A stretch of DNA of 64,000 nt. Source: Bordetella sp. H567 (GTDB lineage Bacteria; Pseudomonadota; Gammaproteobacteria; Burkholderiales; Burkholderiaceae_B). The notes under the pieces were generated by a model. It was not told the origin of the DNA. It saw nothing but the letters and a program-made list of their open reading frames with translations, and searched no databases. Both the position numbers and the translations under genes were made by a program. Shown piece after piece: positions 5,437-17,462 of the stretch (position 1 is the stretch's first letter; each line of letters starts with the position of its first letter). The stretch is taken from NCBI RefSeq assembly GCF_001704295.1, contig NZ_CP012334.1, forward strand, positions 4,724,084-4,788,083, given 5' to 3'.

Positions 5437-7071
5437 GTGGCGCACATCATTCCGGACGGCTGGGAACGCCAGCCACGCAGCGGCCCGGCACAACGCGAGC
5501 TGGACACCCTGGCGCGGCTGAAGGCCGGCCTGCCCGACGACTACACGGTCTATCACGCCGTGCACTGGACCAATGTCGAGGGACGCCACGCCATCTACGG
5601 CGAAATCGACTTCGTCATCATCAACCGGGCGGGCGAGCTGCTCGTCATCGAACAGAAAACCGGCGCGCTGGATGAAACGCCGGACGGCCTGGCCAAGCGC
5701 CATGACGGCAAGGCCCGGCTGGTCTCGGTACAGATGGCGCGCACCGCGGAAAGCCTGCGCGCGAAGCTGGCGCGCAGCCTGGACGGCGCCGAGATCCGCC
5801 TGGACTACCTGCTGCATTGTCCGGACCATCGGGTGCTCGCGCCCACCACCGCGGGCCTGGTGCCCGAACGCATCGTCGACGCCAGCCGGCGCGACCGCCT
5901 GTGCGCCATCGTCCAGGAGATTCTGCCGCCCGGCACGGCGTCGCCATTGGCCACCCGCGTGGATCGCTTCCTGCGCGACATCATCCGCCTGGAAGTCGAC
6001 GTCAGCGCGCTGATCGGGCAGACCCGCACGCAGGTGACCCGGCTCGCGGGCGGCCTGGCGCACTGGGCGCGCCAGATCGACATCGATCCCTACCGCCTGC
6101 GCGTGACCGGCACCGCGGGGTCGGGCAAGACCCAGCTGGCGCTGGCTGAATACCGCGATGCGATCGAACAGGGCAGGCGCCCGTTATACGTGTGCTTCAA
6201 CCGGCCGCTGGCCGACCACTTCAACCGCATCGCACCGGCGGGGGGCCTGGCCTGCTCCTTCCATATGCTGTGCGACCGGCTGCTGCGCGCCGCCGGCCGC
6301 AAGCCGGACTTCTCGCAACCGGACGCCTACACGCGGCTGGTGGACGAAGCCGAGGCCCAGCCGGTACCGGCGAATTTCCTGTTCGATACCGTCATCGTCG
6401 ACGAAGGCCAGGATTTCGATGCGCGCTGGCGCGACATGGTGTTGCGCCTGGCCAAGCCACATGCCCGGGTACTGTGGCTGGAGGATCCGCTGCAGAACCT
6501 GTACGGCAACACGCCGCCGGAGCTTCCCGGCTGGGTGCGGCTGCGCGCGCAAAGCAACTTCCGCAGTCCGCGGCCCGTGGTCGGCTTCCTGCGAACCATC
6601 CTGCCGGACGACGCCCACATCGATGCGCAGGCTCCCGTGCTGGACGCCGACGTGGAAGTGCTGTCGTACCACGACGAGGAAAGCCTTGCCCGCGCGGTCA
6701 AGCAAGGCATACGCAAATGCTATTCGGACGGCTTTCGCCAGGAAGACGTGGCCGTCCTGAGCTACCACGGCCACAAATCGTCCCAGGTACTGCGCAAGGA
6801 CAGGCTGGGGCCGCACATGCTGCGCCGCTTCACCGGCCAATACGACTTGTTCGGCCAGCCGGAATATTCCGCCGGCGAAGTGCTGGCGGAATCGGTTTAC
6901 CGCTTCAAGGGCCAGTCGGTGCCGGCGGTCGTCTTCGCCGAGATCGATTTCGACACGCTGGACGAACAGGCTGTCCGCAAGCTGTTCGTGGGCGCCACGC
7001 GCGCCACGCTGAAGCTGATACTGATCGCTGCCGAGCCGGCCGCCGCGGTGCTAAGAAGCAAGCTGGGCTAG
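5437..7071 (+). CDS. NERD-domain nuclease fused to UvrD-like superfamily 1 helicase
   Basis: I place the start at GTG 5437 (GGAG at 5428-5431, 5-nt spacing), giving 544 residues; a longer open frame to 4813 overlaps yghU and looks non-coding. Residues 45-80 form a NERD nuclease core: D58 in GEIDFVII and E72-x-K74 in IEQKTG, a restriction-enzyme-like D...ExK. Residues 222-400 carry a P-loop (GTAGSGKT, K231) and a DEGQDF box (321-327) of the UvrD/Rep group, and the C-terminus has VYRFKGQSVPAVVFAEID and KLFVGATRATLKLIL, helicase motifs V/VI. A DNA- or RNA-processing ATPase-nuclease is likely; related proteins occur in repair and phage defence. Its end overlaps the convergent LysR gene by 21 bp. 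Confidence 0.85.
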   Translation: MAHIIPDGWERQPRSGPAQRELDTLARLKAGLPDDYTVYHAVHWTNVEGRHAIYGEIDFVIINRAGELLVIEQKTGALDETPDGLAKRHDGKARLVSVQMARTAESLRAKLARSLDGAEIRLDYLLHCPDHRVLAPTTAGLVPERIVDASRRDRLCAIVQEILPPGTASPLATRVDRFLRDIIRLEVDVSALIGQTRTQVTRLAGGLAHWARQIDIDPYRLRVTGTAGSGKTQLALAEYRDAIEQGRRPLYVCFNRPLADHFNRIAPAGGLACSFHMLCDRLLRAAGRKPDFSQPDAYTRLVDEAEAQPVPANFLFDTVIVDEGQDFDARWRDMVLRLAKPHARVLWLEDPLQNLYGNTPPELPGWVRLRAQSNFRSPRPVVGFLRTILPDDAHIDAQAPVLDADVEVLSYHDEESLARAVKQGIRKCYSDGFRQEDVAVLSYHGHKSSQVLRKDRLGPHMLRRFTGQYDLFGQPEYSAGEVLAESVYRFKGQSVPAVVFAEIDFDTLDEQAVRKLFVGATRATLKLILIAAEPAAAVLRSKLG

Positions 7072-10433: not shown

Positions 10434-11735
10434 ATGTCCAACCTGATCGTGCACGGCGGCCTCCCCCTACGCGGGGAAATCGTCCCTTCCGCCAACAAGA
10501 ACGCCGTCCTGCCCATCCTGTGTGCCACGCTGTTGACCGACCAGCCCTTGCGTCTGATCGGCGTGCCCGAGATTACCGACGTCAAGAAAATCCTCGACAT
10601 CTTCCGTATGCTGGGCAGCGACGTGTCGATGGACTTCGCGACCGGCGTCCTGGATCTGCACCACCGCGCCACGGCCTTCGACCCTTCGGTACACAAGCTG
10701 CCGGAGGAAATGCGTTCCTCCATCATGCTGGTGCCGCCCCTGCTGGCGCGCTTCGGCGTCGCGCGCCTGGAAAACGATGTCAAGGGATGCACGCTGGGCG
10801 TGCGGGAAATCGATCCGCACGTGGAAGTCTTCGAGCGCTTCGGCGCCGCCATCGAACGCACGCCGGATTCGCTGATCGTGCATGCCACCGATCGCATGAC
10901 GGCCAATCACCATTGGCTGGACTATGCCTCGGTGACGACCACGGAAAACTTCGTGCTGTGCGCGGTATCGGCCAACGGCACATCGACCCTGGTCAACGCC
11001 GCCTCCGAGCCGCACGTGCAGGAGTTCTGCCGTTTTCTCGCCATGCTGGGCGCGGCCATCGACGGCATCGGGACATCGCGCCTGGCCGTGGCGGGCGGCG
11101 CCGCGCTGGGCGGCGGCGAATTCCGCTTCAGCGAGGATTTCCACGAAATCACAACGTTCCTGGCGCTGGGCGCCATCACGGGCGGCGATATCGCCGTCCG
11201 GAACACCGCGCCGGAGCAGTTTCCGCTGATCGACCGGACTTTCGCCAAATTCGGCGTGGAAGTCGTGCATCGCGACGGCTGGTCGCATGCCTTCCGGGAA
11301 GGTCCCTTGCGGGTGCGCCGGCCCTTCACCCAGAACATCCTGACCAAGGTGGAAGCGGCGCCCTGGCCTTATCTGCCCGTCGATCTGCTGCCCATCTTCA
11401 TTGCCTTGGGCGTCAAGGCCGAGGGCAGTGCGATGTTCTGGAACAAGGTGTACGACGGCGCCATGGGCTGGTCCGTGGAGCTGTCGAAGTTCGGCGCGCA
11501 CGTGTTCCTGTCGGACCCGCATCGTCTGATCACCTTCGGCGGGTTGCGCTTGAGCCCGGCTAAGGTCGAGAGTCCCTACATCATCCGCGTCGCCATCGCA
11601 CTGCTGATGGTGGCCGCCAGCATCGAGGGACGCTCGGAGATCACCAACGCGCTGCCGATCCGCCGCGCCCATCCGAACTTCGTCGAGAACTTGCGATCGG
11701 TGGGCGCGAATGTGGAATGGACGCGCAGCGAATAA
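10434..11735 (+). CDS. UDP-N-acetylglucosamine 1-carboxyvinyltransferase (divergent MurA paralogue)
   Basis: A 433-residue EPSP-synthase-fold protein of full MurA length. MurA catalytic positions can be matched: K22-N23 in ANKNAVLPIL, C119 in KGCTLGVREIDPH (the cysteine that binds PEP and fosfomycin), R124, D317 in YLPVDLLP and R385 in YIIRVAIAL. However the loop has RE where MurA usually has RP, and the Asp region (PWPYLPVD) departs from the usual PHPAFPTD. The main betaproteobacterial murA normally lies in a different gene context, so this is probably a second MurA or a related enolpyruvyl transferase. It has no functional partners here. Confidence 0.78.
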   Translation: MSNLIVHGGLPLRGEIVPSANKNAVLPILCATLLTDQPLRLIGVPEITDVKKILDIFRMLGSDVSMDFATGVLDLHHRATAFDPSVHKLPEEMRSSIMLVPPLLARFGVARLENDVKGCTLGVREIDPHVEVFERFGAAIERTPDSLIVHATDRMTANHHWLDYASVTTTENFVLCAVSANGTSTLVNAASEPHVQEFCRFLAMLGAAIDGIGTSRLAVAGGAALGGGEFRFSEDFHEITTFLALGAITGGDIAVRNTAPEQFPLIDRTFAKFGVEVVHRDGWSHAFREGPLRVRRPFTQNILTKVEAAPWPYLPVDLLPIFIALGVKAEGSAMFWNKVYDGAMGWSVELSKFGAHVFLSDPHRLITFGGLRLSPAKVESPYIIRVAIALLMVAASIEGRSEITNALPIRRAHPNFVENLRSVGANVEWTRSE

Positions 11736-11790: not shown

Positions 11791-11842
11791 CCAAGCCGCC
11801 CGCGCGGCACGTCAAGCCGGTGCAGCGCGCCGATACGGCGGC

Positions 11843-12160
11843 TCAGCCCTTAAAGGGCACGTTGTCGCTGTCGCCAAACTTCACTTCGGCCAGGCCGCTG
11901 GGATCGCGGCCCGCGTTCGCGGCAACGACCGGGCGGCCGGCATCGCTTTCGCGTTGCGCCGTGAAGGGCTTGTTGTCCATGTCTTCGTTGCCCATCTTGC
12001 CCGCCGCGCGAGCCGATTGCAGCTCCTGTATCACCTGTTCGCGGGTGACATTGCTGTATTGCTTGCCGTAGACGCCCTGGAACGGGACGTTCTGGGCCTG
12101 GGCGGTGCCCAGCGCGGCAGCGGAAAGAATCAGGGCGGAAACGATGGTCTTGGCTTTCAT
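11843..12160 (-). CDS. DUF4148 domain secreted protein
   Basis: A 105-residue protein starting at 12160 with an AGAGGA ribosome site. MKAKTIVSALILSAAALGTAQA is a clean Sec signal peptide. The mature part contains YSNVTREQVIQELQSARAAG, the hallmark of DUF4148, a small periplasmic family expanded in Burkholderiales whose function is unknown. It ends with two repeats of an NVPF-type motif. The longer frame to 12646 runs over the divergent radical SAM gene and is rejected. Confidence 0.88.
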   Translation of the reverse strand: MKAKTIVSALILSAAALGTAQAQNVPFQGVYGKQYSNVTREQVIQELQSARAAGKMGNEDMDNKPFTAQRESDAGRPVVAANAGRDPSGLAEVKFGDSDNVPFKG

Positions 12161-12375
12161 GGCAGTGTCCTCTTTCGGTTGGTTCGGCGGGCTTGGCATC
12201 GGGACGTCCCGCTGCGCTTGCTTGCCCTTCCGGCATGGGACGCATTCTGCGCGTGGGCGCCCCCCGGATAAACCCTGCGGAAAGAGAATCAATTTTTCAG
12301 ATTCATAGGTAATCGGTGACCAGACGCAACGCTGGAAGACAGCATGAACCGGCTGCAAGCGGCGTCCGTATAATG

Positions 12376-12391
12376 CTGTATATCCATACAG
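12376..12391. promoter_or_regulatory. LexA (SOS) box
   Basis: CTGTATATCCATACAG is a perfect match to the beta/gammaproteobacterial LexA consensus CTGT-N8-ACAG with the preferred AT-rich core. It lies 17-32 nt upstream of the ATG at 12408, where LexA would block the promoter. This predicts DNA-damage induction of the two-gene cassette downstream. Confidence 0.88.
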
Positions 12392-12407
12392 TAATAGTGG
12401 AACGGCG

Positions 12408-13631
12408 ATGGAACTGCTCACCAAGCTGGAAATCCTGGCGGACGCGGCCAAGTACGACGCCTCATGCGCCAGCAGCGGCGCGCCCAAGCGGGATTCGCGC
12501 GGCCGCGAAGGCCTGGGCGCCAGCACGGGGGCGGGTATCTGCCACAGCTTCACGCCGGACGGCCGCTGCGTCTCCTTGCTGAAGATCCTGCTGACCAATT
12601 TCTGCCAGTACGACTGCCAGTACTGCGTCAACCGCCGCTCCAGCAACGTGCCGCGCGCGCGGTTCTCGCCGCGCGAAGTCGTCGACCTGACGCTGGACTT
12701 CTACAGGCGCAACTACATCGACGGCTTGTTCCTCAGCTCCGGCATCATCCGCAGCGCGGACTACACCATGGAGCAACTGGTCCAGGTGGCCCGCTCGCTG
12801 CGCGAGGAACACCGGTTCCGCGGCTATATCCACCTGAAGACCATCCCGGACGCGGATACCCGCCTTATCTCGCAGGCCGGGCAGTATGCGGACCGGCTCA
12901 GCGTCAACATCGAACTGCCCACCGACGGCGCCCTGCAGCGGCTGGCGCCCGAAAAAAACGTTCATACCATCAAGCGCGCCATGGGCTCCATCCGCCTGGA
13001 CCAGGAAGCGGCGCTCGAAGAAGCCGCGCATGGCAAACGGCCGCCGCGCCGTGCCCCGGCGGGCCAAAGCACGCAGATGATCGTCGGCGCCGACGATGCC
13101 GACGACCGCACCATACTGCGGACGGCGCAAACGCTGTACGGTTCCTACAAGCTGAAACGGGTGTATTACTCCGCCTTCAGCCCCATTCCCGACAGCCCCT
13201 CCGCACTGCCTACGCAGGCGCCGCCGCTGTTGCGCGAACACCGCCTGTACCAGGCGGATTTCCTGTTGCGCGGCTATGGCTTTCGCGCCGAAGAACTGTT
13301 CCAGCGCGATGGCGACCTGCCCCTGGACATCGACCCCAAGCTGTCCTGGGCCTTGGCGCACCGCGAATCGTTTCCGGTGGACCTGAACCGCGCGCCGCAG
13401 CCGCTGATCGCGCGCGTGCCCGGCATCGGCATGCGCAACGCGAAACGCCTGGCTGAACTGCGCCGCCTGCGCGCCATCCGCTATCAGGACCTGGTGCGCC
13501 TGCGCTGCGCGATGGACAAGGTCAAACCCTTCATCGTGGTGCAGGACTACCGGCCCGGGCTGGCGGACCCATCGTCGGAACAATTGCGCCGGACGCTGTC
13601 CGGCGCGCCTGTGCAATTGTCCCTGCTATGA
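12408..13631 (+). CDS. Putative DNA modification/repair radical SAM protein (TIGR03916 type)
   Basis: A 407-residue radical SAM enzyme. The iron-sulfur motif is C66, C70 and C73 (CQYDCQYC), preceded by an N-terminal region with further conserved residues (GAGICHSFTPDGRCVSLLKI). A helix-hairpin-helix segment at about 333-368 (RVPGIGMRNAKRLAELRRL) suggests DNA binding. This family is known as a putative DNA modification/repair radical SAM group and co-occurs with the TIGR03915 family, encoded next (ATGA overlap at 13628-13631). The LexA box upstream gives independent support for a repair role. The chemistry is unknown; lesion reversal by analogy with spore photoproduct lyase is only inference. 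Confidence 0.88.
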   Translation: MELLTKLEILADAAKYDASCASSGAPKRDSRGREGLGASTGAGICHSFTPDGRCVSLLKILLTNFCQYDCQYCVNRRSSNVPRARFSPREVVDLTLDFYRRNYIDGLFLSSGIIRSADYTMEQLVQVARSLREEHRFRGYIHLKTIPDADTRLISQAGQYADRLSVNIELPTDGALQRLAPEKNVHTIKRAMGSIRLDQEAALEEAAHGKRPPRRAPAGQSTQMIVGADDADDRTILRTAQTLYGSYKLKRVYYSAFSPIPDSPSALPTQAPPLLREHRLYQADFLLRGYGFRAEELFQRDGDLPLDIDPKLSWALAHRESFPVDLNRAPQPLIARVPGIGMRNAKRLAELRRLRAIRYQDLVRLRCAMDKVKPFIVVQDYRPGLADPSSEQLRRTLSGAPVQLSLL

Positions 13632-15304
13632 ACGACGCCGCCCCGCCCACCCAGGGTGCGGAAGCGCCTGCCCGGTCTACCGCTGCGTCGGCTGGGCCTG
13701 TTGCACCGCGTGCCGCCCTCGCGGCCGCTTTGCCCGCGCCCGCTACCGCGACGCTGATCGTCGAAAACGGCTATGCGGGCTGGCGCGAGCAGGCGCTGCG
13801 CGCGCTTGCCCGGGGCTGGCCGCCCGACGCCCTGACATGGGTGGAACATCTTCCAACGCCGGATGGCGGCACCGCGCAAATGGCGCTGGATTATTCCGCG
13901 TCCGCCGGCGATGCCGCAGGTCCGTCCGATGCTGCCCCCGCCTCGGAGGCACCGTGCACGGCGTACACCGGCGCGCCGGAGCCCGATGCACCATCGGCGT
14001 CCACGGGGCAGGCCGAGACGCCCGTGCGCATTTCCCCCGCCTTGGCCGGCCTGCTGCAGGACGCCGCGCGCTACCGTTCGCCGCGGCGCTGGGCTTTCCT
14101 TTACCGCGTATTGTGGCGATGGCGGCAAGGCGACCGCGCCGTGGCATCGGCAGCCGATGAAGACGGCCGGCACCTGCACGCCATGGCGAAATCCGTACGG
14201 CGCGCCCATCACGACATGATCGCCTATGTGCGCTTCCACAAGCGCGACAGGCCCGGCATCCCTGAATACCTGGCCTGGTACGAACCCGACCACGATGTGC
14301 TGGCGGCCGCGGCGGAACATTTCGCGCGCCGCATGGGCCGCTCATCCTGGCTGATCGGCACGCCCCATGGCGCCGCGCTATGGGACGGCAGCACGCTGCG
14401 CCTGTCCGGCGCGCCCGCCGACGCCGCCGCCATACGCGCCAGTGCCGCCAACGATCAGGCCGAACCGCTGTGGCTGGCCTATTACAGGAACGTCTTCAAT
14501 CCCGCCCGGCTGAACGAAGCCGCGCTGCACCGGCAGATGCCCGTACGCTTCTGGAAAGGCTTGCCCGAAGGCCCACTGATACCTGGCATGATCGCGCAGG
14601 CCCGTAACGGCGCGCGCCGCGTGGCGCAGGCCGGCACCGTGGGCGCGATGTCGGGCAAGGCCGTCGCGGTCGACGCGCAACGCGCGCAGCCGCTACGCGC
14701 CGCGCCGTCCTCGCTGGACGAATGCAGGCGCTGCGAATTGTGGCGCCAGGCCACGCAAGCCGTGCCCGGCGAAGGGCCGGCGGCCGCGCGCATCATGCTG
14801 GTCGGCGAACAGCCCGGCGATCACGAGGACCTGGCCGGCCGGGCTTTCGTCGGGCCGGCCGGCCAAGTGCTGAACGACGCCCTGCACCGGGCGGGCGTGC
14901 CGCGGGGCGATGTGTTCCTGACCAATGCCGTCAAGCACTTCAAGTGGTTTCCACGCGGCAAGCGCCGCATGCACAAAACGCCCGCGCAGCGCGAAGTCGA
15001 TGCCTGCGCGCATTGGCTGGACCAGGAACTTGCGCGCGTGCGCCCCGCCGTCATCATCACGCTGGGCGCCACGGCGCTCGGCGCCGTCCTGCGCCACAAG
15101 GCCAGCCTGCGGGATTATCTCGATGCCCCGGTGCGGCATGGCGACGCCTGGCTGGTCGCCACGTGGCATCCCTCTTATGCGCTGCGCGTGGACGATGCGT
15201 CGGCGCGCGAGGAAATCGTCGACGGCATCGCGCGCGCCATCGCGCGCGGGCGGCAGCTGCTCGCGGCCCCGCCTTCCTCCGCCGGCGCCGCCGGACACGG
15301 ATGA
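13628..15304 (+). CDS. TIGR03915-type domain fused to UdgX uracil-DNA-binding domain
   Basis: A 558-residue two-part protein. Residues about 35-345 match the TIGR03915/DUF4130 family that accompanies the radical SAM partner. Residues about 360-550 are a family of uracil-DNA glycosylase called UdgX: GEQPGDHEDLAGRAFVGPAG (motif A region), then the KRRMH loop with H449, equivalent to the His that forms a covalent bond to uracil in Mycobacterium UdgX, and WHPSYALR near the end. The likely job is sensing or trapping damaged or uracil DNA and handing it to the radical SAM enzyme. It is translationally coupled to that gene and shares the LexA-controlled promoter. Confidence 0.88.
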   Translation: MNDAAPPTQGAEAPARSTAASAGPVAPRAALAAALPAPATATLIVENGYAGWREQALRALARGWPPDALTWVEHLPTPDGGTAQMALDYSASAGDAAGPSDAAPASEAPCTAYTGAPEPDAPSASTGQAETPVRISPALAGLLQDAARYRSPRRWAFLYRVLWRWRQGDRAVASAADEDGRHLHAMAKSVRRAHHDMIAYVRFHKRDRPGIPEYLAWYEPDHDVLAAAAEHFARRMGRSSWLIGTPHGAALWDGSTLRLSGAPADAAAIRASAANDQAEPLWLAYYRNVFNPARLNEAALHRQMPVRFWKGLPEGPLIPGMIAQARNGARRVAQAGTVGAMSGKAVAVDAQRAQPLRAAPSSLDECRRCELWRQATQAVPGEGPAAARIMLVGEQPGDHEDLAGRAFVGPAGQVLNDALHRAGVPRGDVFLTNAVKHFKWFPRGKRRMHKTPAQREVDACAHWLDQELARVRPAVIITLGATALGAVLRHKASLRDYLDAPVRHGDAWLVATWHPSYALRVDDASAREEIVDGIARAIARGRQLLAAPPSSAGAAGHG

Positions 15305-15389
15305 GCGCAAGGCGCGCCGGGCGCCGTCCTTGGCACGCCTGTTGCGGCTCGCCATGACTCCTTGGTTTGCCTATCCGGGAAAGGGAAGC

Positions 15390-17462
15390 ATGATGAGCGA
15401 CAGCACGCCAATGCAGCGCAAAATGGTCGAACGCCAGCTCCGCGCGCGGGGTATCCAGGACGAACGCGTGCTCGCCGCGATGGAGCACGTGCCGCGCCAC
15501 GCCTTCGTCCCGCCCTCCCTGTCCGAGTTCGCGTATGACGACGCGCCGCTGCCCCTTGCATCGGGCCAGACCATCTCGCAACCGTATATCGTCGCGCTGA
15601 TGGCGCAGGCCGCCAGCCTGCAGCGCTCCGACCGCGTGCTGGAGATCGGCACCGGATCAGGCTATGCGGCGGCCGTGCTGGCCGAGCTGGCGGACCGGGT
15701 CGATACGGTGGAGCGTCTGTCGGAACTGGCCGACAAGGCGCGCGAGACCTTGCAATCGCAGGGCTACGGCCGCGTGCGGGTTCATACGGGCGACGGCACG
15801 CTGGGATTGCCGGACGCCGCGCCCTTCGACGCCATCGTCGCGGCGGCGGCCGGGCCCGACGTACCCGCCGCCTGGCGCGAGCAGCTGGCGATAGGCGGAC
15901 GCATCGTCATGCCGGTCGGCGGTCGCCGCGGCGGCCAGCGGCTGGTCCGGATCACCCGCGTCGGCCGCGACGAATACGACGAAGAGGACCTGGGCGGCGT
16001 GGCCTTCGTTCCCCTTGTCGGCGCGCAGGGATGGGCGGCCAATCCGTATGCCGGCGACGGCGGGAAACCGGACGCCGACGGTGCGCGTTCGGCGCAATCC
16101 GCGGCGCCCCCGCGCGTATCGCCCAAACGGGCCGCGTTCGCGCCCCACGCGGACATGCCGTCCGACCCCGAGGCCGAAGCCATATGGGAGGCCGCCGAGG
16201 CGCTGCCGGACATCGACGACGCGCTGTTCGCGCCCTTGTTCGACCGTTTCGCGGACAAGCGCGTGGTGCTGCTGGGCGAAGCCAGCCATGGCACCAGCGA
16301 GTTCTATCGCGCGCGCGCCGCCATCACGCGCCGGCTGATCGAAGCGCACGGCTTCGACATCGTGGCGGTGGAAGCCGACTGGCCGGACGCCGCGGCCATC
16401 GACCGCTATGTCAGGCATCGCCCCGCGGCCAAGCGCGAGGTCTCTCCCTTTCGCCGTTTTCCCACCTGGATGTGGCGCAATACCGAGGTCGAAGCCTTCA
16501 TCGAATGGCTGCACGCCTACAACGGCGTCCTGGAGCCTGGCGAACGCGCCGGTTTCTACGGCCTGGACCTGTACAGCATGTCGGCGTCGATCGCCGCGGT
16601 CCTGGCGTACCTGGACCGCACGGATCCCGAGGCGGCCGGTGTCGCGCGCGAACGATACGGCTGCCTGATGCCCTGGCAGAAGGACCCGCGCGTCTACGCG
16701 CGCGCCGTCGCCAGCCAGGGCTTCCGGCAATGCGAGGATGCCGTGTTGCGCCAACTGCGCGACCTTCTGGACAAACGGCTCGATTACGCGCGGGAGGACG
16801 GTGACAGCTTCCTGGACGCCACGCAGAATGCCCGACTGGTTGCCGCCGCCGAACGCTATTACCGCACGCTATACCAAGGGCCGGCGCAAAGCTGGAACCT
16901 GCGCGACACGCATATGTTCGAGACGCTGGCGCGGCTGCTGGAAGCCCGGGGACCGCAATCGCGCGCCGTGGTCTGGGCACACAACTCGCATATAGGCGAT
17001 GCATCCGCCACGGAAATGGGGCGTGTGCGCGACGAAATCAATATCGGCCAGCTGTGCCGCGAGCGCTATGGCCACGAGGCCGCGCTCGTGGGCTTCGGCA
17101 CCTATGCCGGCACGGTCGGCGCCGCCGACGACTGGGATGGCCCCATGCGCTTGATGCGCGTGCGGCCGGCGCGGCCGGACAGCTACGAACACATGATGCA
17201 CCGGACGGGACAGACGAGGTTCTTGCTGGACCTGCGGCCCGGCGTGCATGACGATTTGCGCGTGCTGTTGAACGCGCCACGGCTGGAACGCTATATCGGC
17301 GTGATCTACCGCCCGGACACCGAACTCTACAGCCATTATGCGGAGGCGACGCTGGCCGAGCAGTACGATGCCTACGTGTGGTTCGATGTCACCGCGGCCG
17401 TCACGCCCCTGCCTGTGGAGGCTCGCGAAGGCATGCCGGAAACCTACCCATTCGCGGTGTGA
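15390..17462 (+). CDS. Protein-L-isoaspartate methyltransferase fused to erythromycin-esterase-like domain
   Basis: A 690-residue fusion; the start is ATG 15390 or 15393 behind AAGGGA. Residues 1-210 are a PIMT: SGQTISQPYIVALM and the SAM loop EIGTGSGYAAAV (G87 onward). Residues about 270-680 are an erythromycin-esterase-like domain with the residues expected of EreA/EreB: H300 in GEASHGTSEFY, E328 in VEADWPDA and H531 in WAHNSH. PIMT repairs isoaspartyl damage in aged proteins; Ere enzymes hydrolyse macrolactones, though many homologues have other unknown roles. A linker of about 50 residues joins them. Its end overlaps the convergent ammonia-lyase gene by 19 bp. Confidence 0.87.
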   Translation: MMSDSTPMQRKMVERQLRARGIQDERVLAAMEHVPRHAFVPPSLSEFAYDDAPLPLASGQTISQPYIVALMAQAASLQRSDRVLEIGTGSGYAAAVLAELADRVDTVERLSELADKARETLQSQGYGRVRVHTGDGTLGLPDAAPFDAIVAAAAGPDVPAAWREQLAIGGRIVMPVGGRRGGQRLVRITRVGRDEYDEEDLGGVAFVPLVGAQGWAANPYAGDGGKPDADGARSAQSAAPPRVSPKRAAFAPHADMPSDPEAEAIWEAAEALPDIDDALFAPLFDRFADKRVVLLGEASHGTSEFYRARAAITRRLIEAHGFDIVAVEADWPDAAAIDRYVRHRPAAKREVSPFRRFPTWMWRNTEVEAFIEWLHAYNGVLEPGERAGFYGLDLYSMSASIAAVLAYLDRTDPEAAGVARERYGCLMPWQKDPRVYARAVASQGFRQCEDAVLRQLRDLLDKRLDYAREDGDSFLDATQNARLVAAAERYYRTLYQGPAQSWNLRDTHMFETLARLLEARGPQSRAVVWAHNSHIGDASATEMGRVRDEINIGQLCRERYGHEAALVGFGTYAGTVGAADDWDGPMRLMRVRPARPDSYEHMMHRTGQTRFLLDLRPGVHDDLRVLLNAPRLERYIGVIYRPDTELYSHYAEATLAEQYDAYVWFDVTAAVTPLPVEAREGMPETYPFAV

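Follow-up and report, generated by a model that had tools for sequence, protein, structure and literature searches.

A radical SAM-DUF4130 gene pair with predicted SOS control and a frequently missing UdgX domain in Bordetella sp. H567 and relatives

The 64,000-nucleotide stretch of the Bordetella sp. H567 genome analysed here (contig NZ_CP012334.1, positions 4,724,084 to 4,788,083; "the window") carries a two-gene cassette that encodes a radical S-adenosylmethionine (SAM) protein of family TIGR03916 and a protein in which a TIGR03915/DUF4130 region is fused to a UdgX domain. We find that the cassette is almost certainly under SOS control, as judged from the conservation of lineage-matched LexA boxes, and that the radical SAM protein and DUF4130 very probably form its core, with UdgX as an accessory. 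A sequence-only reading of the window had claimed a perfect LexA box and two translationally coupled genes, and both are present: the genes overlap by 4 bases (ATGA), and the box ends 16 bp before the ATG of the radical SAM gene. The features of the cassette are:

12369..12374, plus strand: candidate -10 element TATAAT, identified by eye, one base ahead of the LexA box
12376..12391, plus strand: LexA box CTGTATATCCATACAG, an exact CTGT-N8-ACAG at a conserved site
12408..13631, plus strand: TIGR03916 radical SAM protein, 407 aa, from profile match and cysteine motif
13628..15304, plus strand: DUF4130-UdgX fusion protein, 558 aa, from profile matches, coupled by the ATGA overlap
13739..14569, plus strand: TIGR03915/DUF4130 region, residues 38-314 (TIGR03915 match 123-314), from profile
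14576..15223, plus strand: UdgX domain, residues 317-532 (TIGR03914 match), from profile and motifs

The box is the sole exact copy of CTGT-N8-ACAG in the window, where 0.39 copies are expected and where at least one copy occurs in 32 of 100 shuffles. Genome-wide, the bare consensus shows no enrichment (22 sites vs. 24 for the reversed control), numerous further consensus sites do not lie ahead of genes of the lexA, recA or imuA type, and one box, at L015, stays without an assigned gene. By consensus alone, the cassette box is no more than chance. What takes the box beyond chance is that an identical 16-mer precedes lexA in the same genome (L010), that AT-cored boxes in that genome precede recA (L007) and imuA (L008), that TATAAT adjoins it, and that the site is conserved. 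An AT-cored box also precedes a PA0069-family radical SAM gene (L011). A sigma-70 scan found no full promoter at the cassette, and a good -35 element is absent beside TATAAT.

Conservation was assessed at cassettes over the TIGR03916 cut-off in a family sample (26 of 200 genomes), a class sample (7 of 274, the window itself being one of the 7) and a phylum sample (84 of 398, 4 of the 84 having been met in the earlier samples), which together gave 112 distinct loci, 58 in the class of Bordetella and 54 in another class. The operator scan covered the region within 170 bp of the radical SAM gene start, and other 185-bp windows from the identical loci served as controls. For the class of Bordetella, exact CTGT-N8-ACAG precedes 38/58 cassettes vs. 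5/1205 control windows, one-mismatch copies being present in 35/1205 control windows. The exact box is found at 18 of 26 family loci (7 others have one mismatch and 1 has two), at 4 of 6 class loci (1 with one mismatch, 1 with none of these boxes) and at 16 of 26 loci of this class in the phylum sample (5 with one mismatch, 3 with a third type, GTCTCA-N5-TGAGAC, and 2 with none). For the other class, exact GTTC-N7-GTTC, in either orientation, precedes 54/54 cassettes vs. 3/1118 control windows; the parts of PMC8565304 on which we draw give this as the Alphaproteobacteria motif. An earlier control with 135-bp windows yielded either motif in 10/3232, and letter-shuffled upstream regions yielded 0.5%.

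Named relatives from genome_contigs, taken as the best 80 of 589, give a similar division: 66 have an exact motif, comprising 17 CTGT loci (Burkholderiales, Pseudomonas and Salinicola) and 49 GTTC loci (with names that read as Alphaproteobacteria), and 8 of the 14 with neither exact motif have a one-mismatch CTGT box. The third operator is found at L160 (Xanthomonas), L170 (Stenotrophomonas) and L213 (Pseudoxanthomonas), GAAC-N4-GTTC lies upstream of the cassette at L200, and no operator was recognised at L172, one of these 80. In a Verrucomicrobiaceae metagenome-assembled genome (L193), a palindrome, GAACAGTGC-N7-GCACTGTTC, replaces the proteobacterial boxes upstream of position 6001.

A scan of homologous loci for LexA boxes, which the sequence-only reading had proposed, thus finds lineage-matched boxes before most cassettes, and the claim of SOS control is strongly supported by that conservation. 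Two observations point the other way: L028 has a symmetrical two-mismatch box, CTGGATATATATCCAG (the script labels this locus GTTC because a GAAC repeat spans its start codon), and 3/58 loci in the class of Bordetella (L053, L058 and L089) have no recognised operator. A chance match, with an operon outside SOS control, would fit the expected count in the window and the lack of genome-wide enrichment. We nevertheless reject this explanation, as extremely unlikely, on the basis of conservation of the site with class-specific switching of motif and of the identity of the 16-mer with the lexA box.

The third operator appears to mark a second DNA-damage regulon, one independent of LexA. GTCTCA-N5-TGAGAC lies 22 bp ahead of the cassette in L094 (one mismatch), L095, L099, L160, L170 and L213. 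Exact copies number 1-3 per genome in six cassette-bearing Lysobacteraceae, and 46 exact sites occur in 26 of 40 Lysobacteraceae genomes; the reversed control gives 0 in both sets. Among 58 sites examined from the two sets, 12 precede the radical SAM gene, 15 a helicase gene and 4 uvrA (in G555, G760, G851 and the Stenotrophomonas sepilia genome G857). Clustering of the other 27 gives 4 more helicases of this kind, 6 mraZ and 2 recA (one of each checked), with 15 left over. In the one member checked, the helicase is related to TIGR03817 and has an HRQ1 winged-helix match below threshold (DECH/HRQ1 type). Example sites are L258 and L231, at 1501-1517 (among L224-L238 and L252-L294). In 3.6-kb loci around 12 lexA homologues from 8 genomes, no copy with fewer than two mismatches was found, and 6/9 of the homologues with placed starts have a TTAG(T/C)AGTA(A/T)TACTACT box. 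Because the motif precedes uvrA, recA, helicase and cassette genes, but not the lexA genes checked, the Lysobacteraceae cassette is apparently part of a second regulon of damage type. Two findings in this family weigh against the lesion-processing hypothesis favoured below: the motif is absent from 14/40 Lysobacteraceae genomes, and most one-mismatch copies in two genomes lie before no recognised repair gene.

The composition of the cassette separates a constant part from an optional part. Comparison of the lists for the 398 phylum-sample genomes shows that TIGR03916 is accompanied by TIGR03915/DUF4130 in 84/84 genomes. TIGR03915 occurs in 88 genomes (87 over cut-off), four of which have no radical SAM gene (G534, where the TIGR03915 match is broken and sub-threshold, G660, G676 and G745). 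UdgX is over cut-off in 78/398, and 15 of those 78, on our reading of the lists, have no TIGR03916. Caulobacter vibrioides, among the control genomes, gave matches to all three families. In a survey of partner architecture at 194 loci, DUF4130 is fused to UdgX in 142 (30 of them truncated where the locus ends), stands alone in a complete frame without UdgX in 39, and stands alone but cut in 4; one locus has a separate UdgX frame, and 8 have no DUF4130 in reach, 6 of the 8 having fewer than 800 bases downstream. At the other two, L092 and L097, DUF4130 lies about 2.8-3 kb downstream. A probe for family-4-type uracil-DNA glycosylase (UDG) in 20 genomes, 18 of them with DUF4130 alone, gave no match in 15/18 and a match in 3, with a sensitivity that is imperfect (it missed G845, whose partner scores UdgX-like); the TIGR03914 matches likewise include none of the 15 negative genomes. 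The sequence-only reading had counted a covalent uracil trap among its grounds for a lesion-repair system. Such a trap as the point of the unit is not supported, because DUF4130 is constant, UdgX is often missing, as from the 39 complete partner genes, and in 15 of the 18 such genomes probed it was not found elsewhere. UdgX as the core was rejected on the same grounds.

The radical SAM protein matches TIGR03916 in NCBIfam with 552 bits (cut-off 343.5). Its CX3CX2C motif (C66, C70 and C73) is invariant in 42/42 sequences, and C20, C45 and C54 are additional invariant cysteines; in the AlphaFold model the predicted local distance difference test (pLDDT) score is <50 at residues 20-55. A C-terminal helix-hairpin-helix (HHH), claimed in the sequence-only reading, is probable at about residues 322-368: the family profile of this region gives weak matches to ComEA-type HHH (E 0.0048) and RuvA (E 0.03-0.1), and Pfam HHH_3 scores below cut-off at residues 323-353 (20.3 bits vs. 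27). The spore photoproduct lyase models TIGR04070 and PF20903 gave no match (NCBIfam E<=0.001, Pfam E<=0.1). Fold relatives include RlmN and MiaB, which are nucleic-acid modifiers. Homologues occur in 10 phage records, all at <60% identity and 8 of them named "Bacteriophage sp.", and on 2 IMG/VR contigs. In H7 and H8 (Acinetobacter phage MD-2021a, about 240 kb), a gene with 51% identity is annotated as a putative DNA modification/repair radical SAM protein. An origin on a mobile element was tried and rejected: plasmid megablast of 11800-15800 returned 8 records, none with 80% query coverage.

The partner protein matches TIGR03915 with 169.6 bits (cut-off 112.25) and PF13566 with 115.2 (cut-off 27), and twelve polar residues of DUF4130, numbered as in the model, are invariant in 61/61 sequences (D140, H158, R165, E182, H185, R198, T208, D239, Y248, N254, R257 and E277). 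In the model of the fusion protein, pLDDT is <50 at residues 89-105. A RecJ/DHH enzyme was considered for DUF4130 and rejected, any resemblance being one of fold, with neither sequence support nor catalytic motif: Pfam gave no DHH match, the invariant columns hold no DHH motif, and the DUF4130 profile against five RecJ sequences gave E 0.37. The UdgX domain matches TIGR03914 with 242.5 bits (cut-off 189.95) and has GEQPG (393-397), KRRMH (445-449) and HPSYALR (514-520); candidate cluster ligands are C366, C369, H437 and C460. KRRMH aligns with the KRRIH loop of Mycobacterium smegmatis UdgX (6ajo), which puts H449, as the sequence-only reading had predicted, at the position equivalent to the crosslinking H109. 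The genome also encodes a second, stand-alone UdgX with GEQPG and KRRMH (L327:1862-2542, contig 230861-231541), and no exact CTGT-N8-ACAG was found within the 4.5 kb examined around it.

We favour, with moderate confidence, the hypothesis that the cassette is an SOS-inducible operon that processes DNA lesions. According to this hypothesis, LexA on the box at 12376-12391 would sit over the transcription start until damage releases it; the radical SAM protein would use its C-terminal HHH to hold DNA and would produce a 5'-deoxyadenosyl radical; DUF4130, as the constant partner, would probably position or finish the DNA substrate; and UdgX, where present, would remove uracil and cap the abasic site covalently, which may be useful where SOS polymerases or the repair reaction itself leave uracil. 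DNA is the likely substrate of the pair. We tentatively propose, at somewhat less than even chance, that the pair works in situ on a damaged base or sugar, which it would restore or trim. A more specific version, in which a radical SAM protein with the HHH and a second, N-terminal iron-sulphur site (C20, C45 and C54) works with a catalytically diverged DHH-fold partner, uses radical chemistry to undo a bulky or crosslinked lesion and may have UdgX added to cap uracil sites, would put the pair in an SOS repair class of its own and is rather doubtful. A DNA-directed role is plausible because of the HHH, the SOS control and, in some Lysobacteraceae, the operator shared with recA and uvrA. The dedicated lesion-repair system proposed in the sequence-only reading is thus retained in its SOS control and plausible direction toward DNA, and not in its uracil trap. 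Three considerations weigh against the hypothesis: the HHH matches are weak, an SOS-controlled pair could still modify DNA, RNA or protein, and an ever-near partner is also observed for radical SAM enzymes that act on the partner protein itself.

The last of these corresponds to a reading in which the radical SAM protein matures DUF4130, by installing a radical or modifying a residue, and DUF4130 then acts on damaged DNA. The co-occurrence, with mostly direct adjacency, and the many invariant polar residues of DUF4130 agree with it, but the probable HHH points toward a nucleic-acid substrate, and in G688 and G700 about 2.8-3 kb separates the two genes; we consider it unlikely. That the pair makes a modified DNA or RNA base, as protection or a mark for nucleic acid in the SOS response, with no repair, would suit the NCBIfam name of TIGR03916 ("putative DNA modification/repair"), the fold relatives RlmN and MiaB, and the statement, in the part of Aravind et al. 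2013 (PMC3765255) on which we draw, that the set "might modify thymines". Repair is a better fit to the UdgX fusion and to the operator that recA, uvrA and the HRQ1-type helicase share in some Lysobacteraceae, and we regard base modification as fairly improbable. The pair might instead release or rebuild the UdgX-DNA crosslink by breaking the His-C1' bond, as the fusion in the window and most surveyed loci would allow; the portion of PMC10359453 used here proposes that UdgX crosslinks are maybe resolved by RecA-dependent pathways or proteases. Against this, DUF4130 occurs in complete frames without UdgX, the 15 genomes without a family-4-type UDG still keep the CTGT-N8-ACAG box (10 exact, 5 with one mismatch), and UdgX occurs in genomes without the radical SAM gene. 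We judge crosslink release quite improbable.

Beside the cassette lie an EPSP-synthase family gene (10434-11735) and, downstream, a gene for a fusion of protein-L-isoaspartate methyltransferase (PCMT) and erythromycin-esterase domains (15390-17462).

In two bacterial classes, operators of the damage response precede genes for a protein region that is often fused to UdgX, and one family has a third operator. Genome-wide methods make use of UdgX. The constant part of the cassette is the radical SAM-DUF4130 pair, not UdgX; the target for assay therefore shifts to the pair alone. Literature searches found no paper on UdgX with radical SAM or on UdgX with LexA, and a search on the three TIGR numbers turned up one paper, with TIGR03914 alone.

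We take COG4277 to be the radical SAM family of the cassette. The parts of PMC8565304 on which we draw predict an SOS-regulated COG1573-COG4277 two-gene operon in Bacteroidetes and cite prior reports of it in Verrucomicrobia and Alphaproteobacteria; like the cassette, it joins a UDG-family gene to COG4277 under SOS regulators, and it is called a putative base-excision system involving UDG, whereas the UdgX of the cassette proves optional. The corresponding parts of Aravind et al. 2013 (PMC3765255) link DUF4130 both to UDGs and to radical SAM proteins of SplB-like type; the three kinds of domain are alike and grouped with SOS repair, and the radical SAM proteins are termed SplB-like, whereas that of the cassette has no match to the lyase models. 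Publications on other groups have thus already put a pair of this kind under SOS control, and the core/accessory structure is not stated in those parts. PMC10359453, in the portion used here, gives the UdgX motifs and calls the physiological role largely unknown.

The UdgX of M. smegmatis (PDB 6ajo and others) has in common with that of the cassette GEQPG, the KRRxH crosslinking His, TNAVKHF, CxxC and AC. It differs in being a protein of about 200-230 aa, whereas the UdgX of the cassette is the C-terminal part of a fusion, and in motif B, where HPS(S/A)(L/V)(L/V)R reads HPSYALR in the cassette, with HPS and R retained and the middle changed.

Spore photoproduct lyase is a radical SAM protein linked to DNA repair. 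The PA0069-family gene of the Bordetella genome (L011:737-2011), at the LexA-type box CTGTACATCCATACAG, resembles the cassette in being a radical SAM gene with such a box. Both differ from TIGR03916 in belonging to separate hidden Markov model families, TIGR03916 adding N-terminal cysteines and the probable HHH. Should the pair prove to reverse lesions by radical chemistry, it would, like spore photoproduct lyase, be one of the few DNA repair enzymes that work through radicals.
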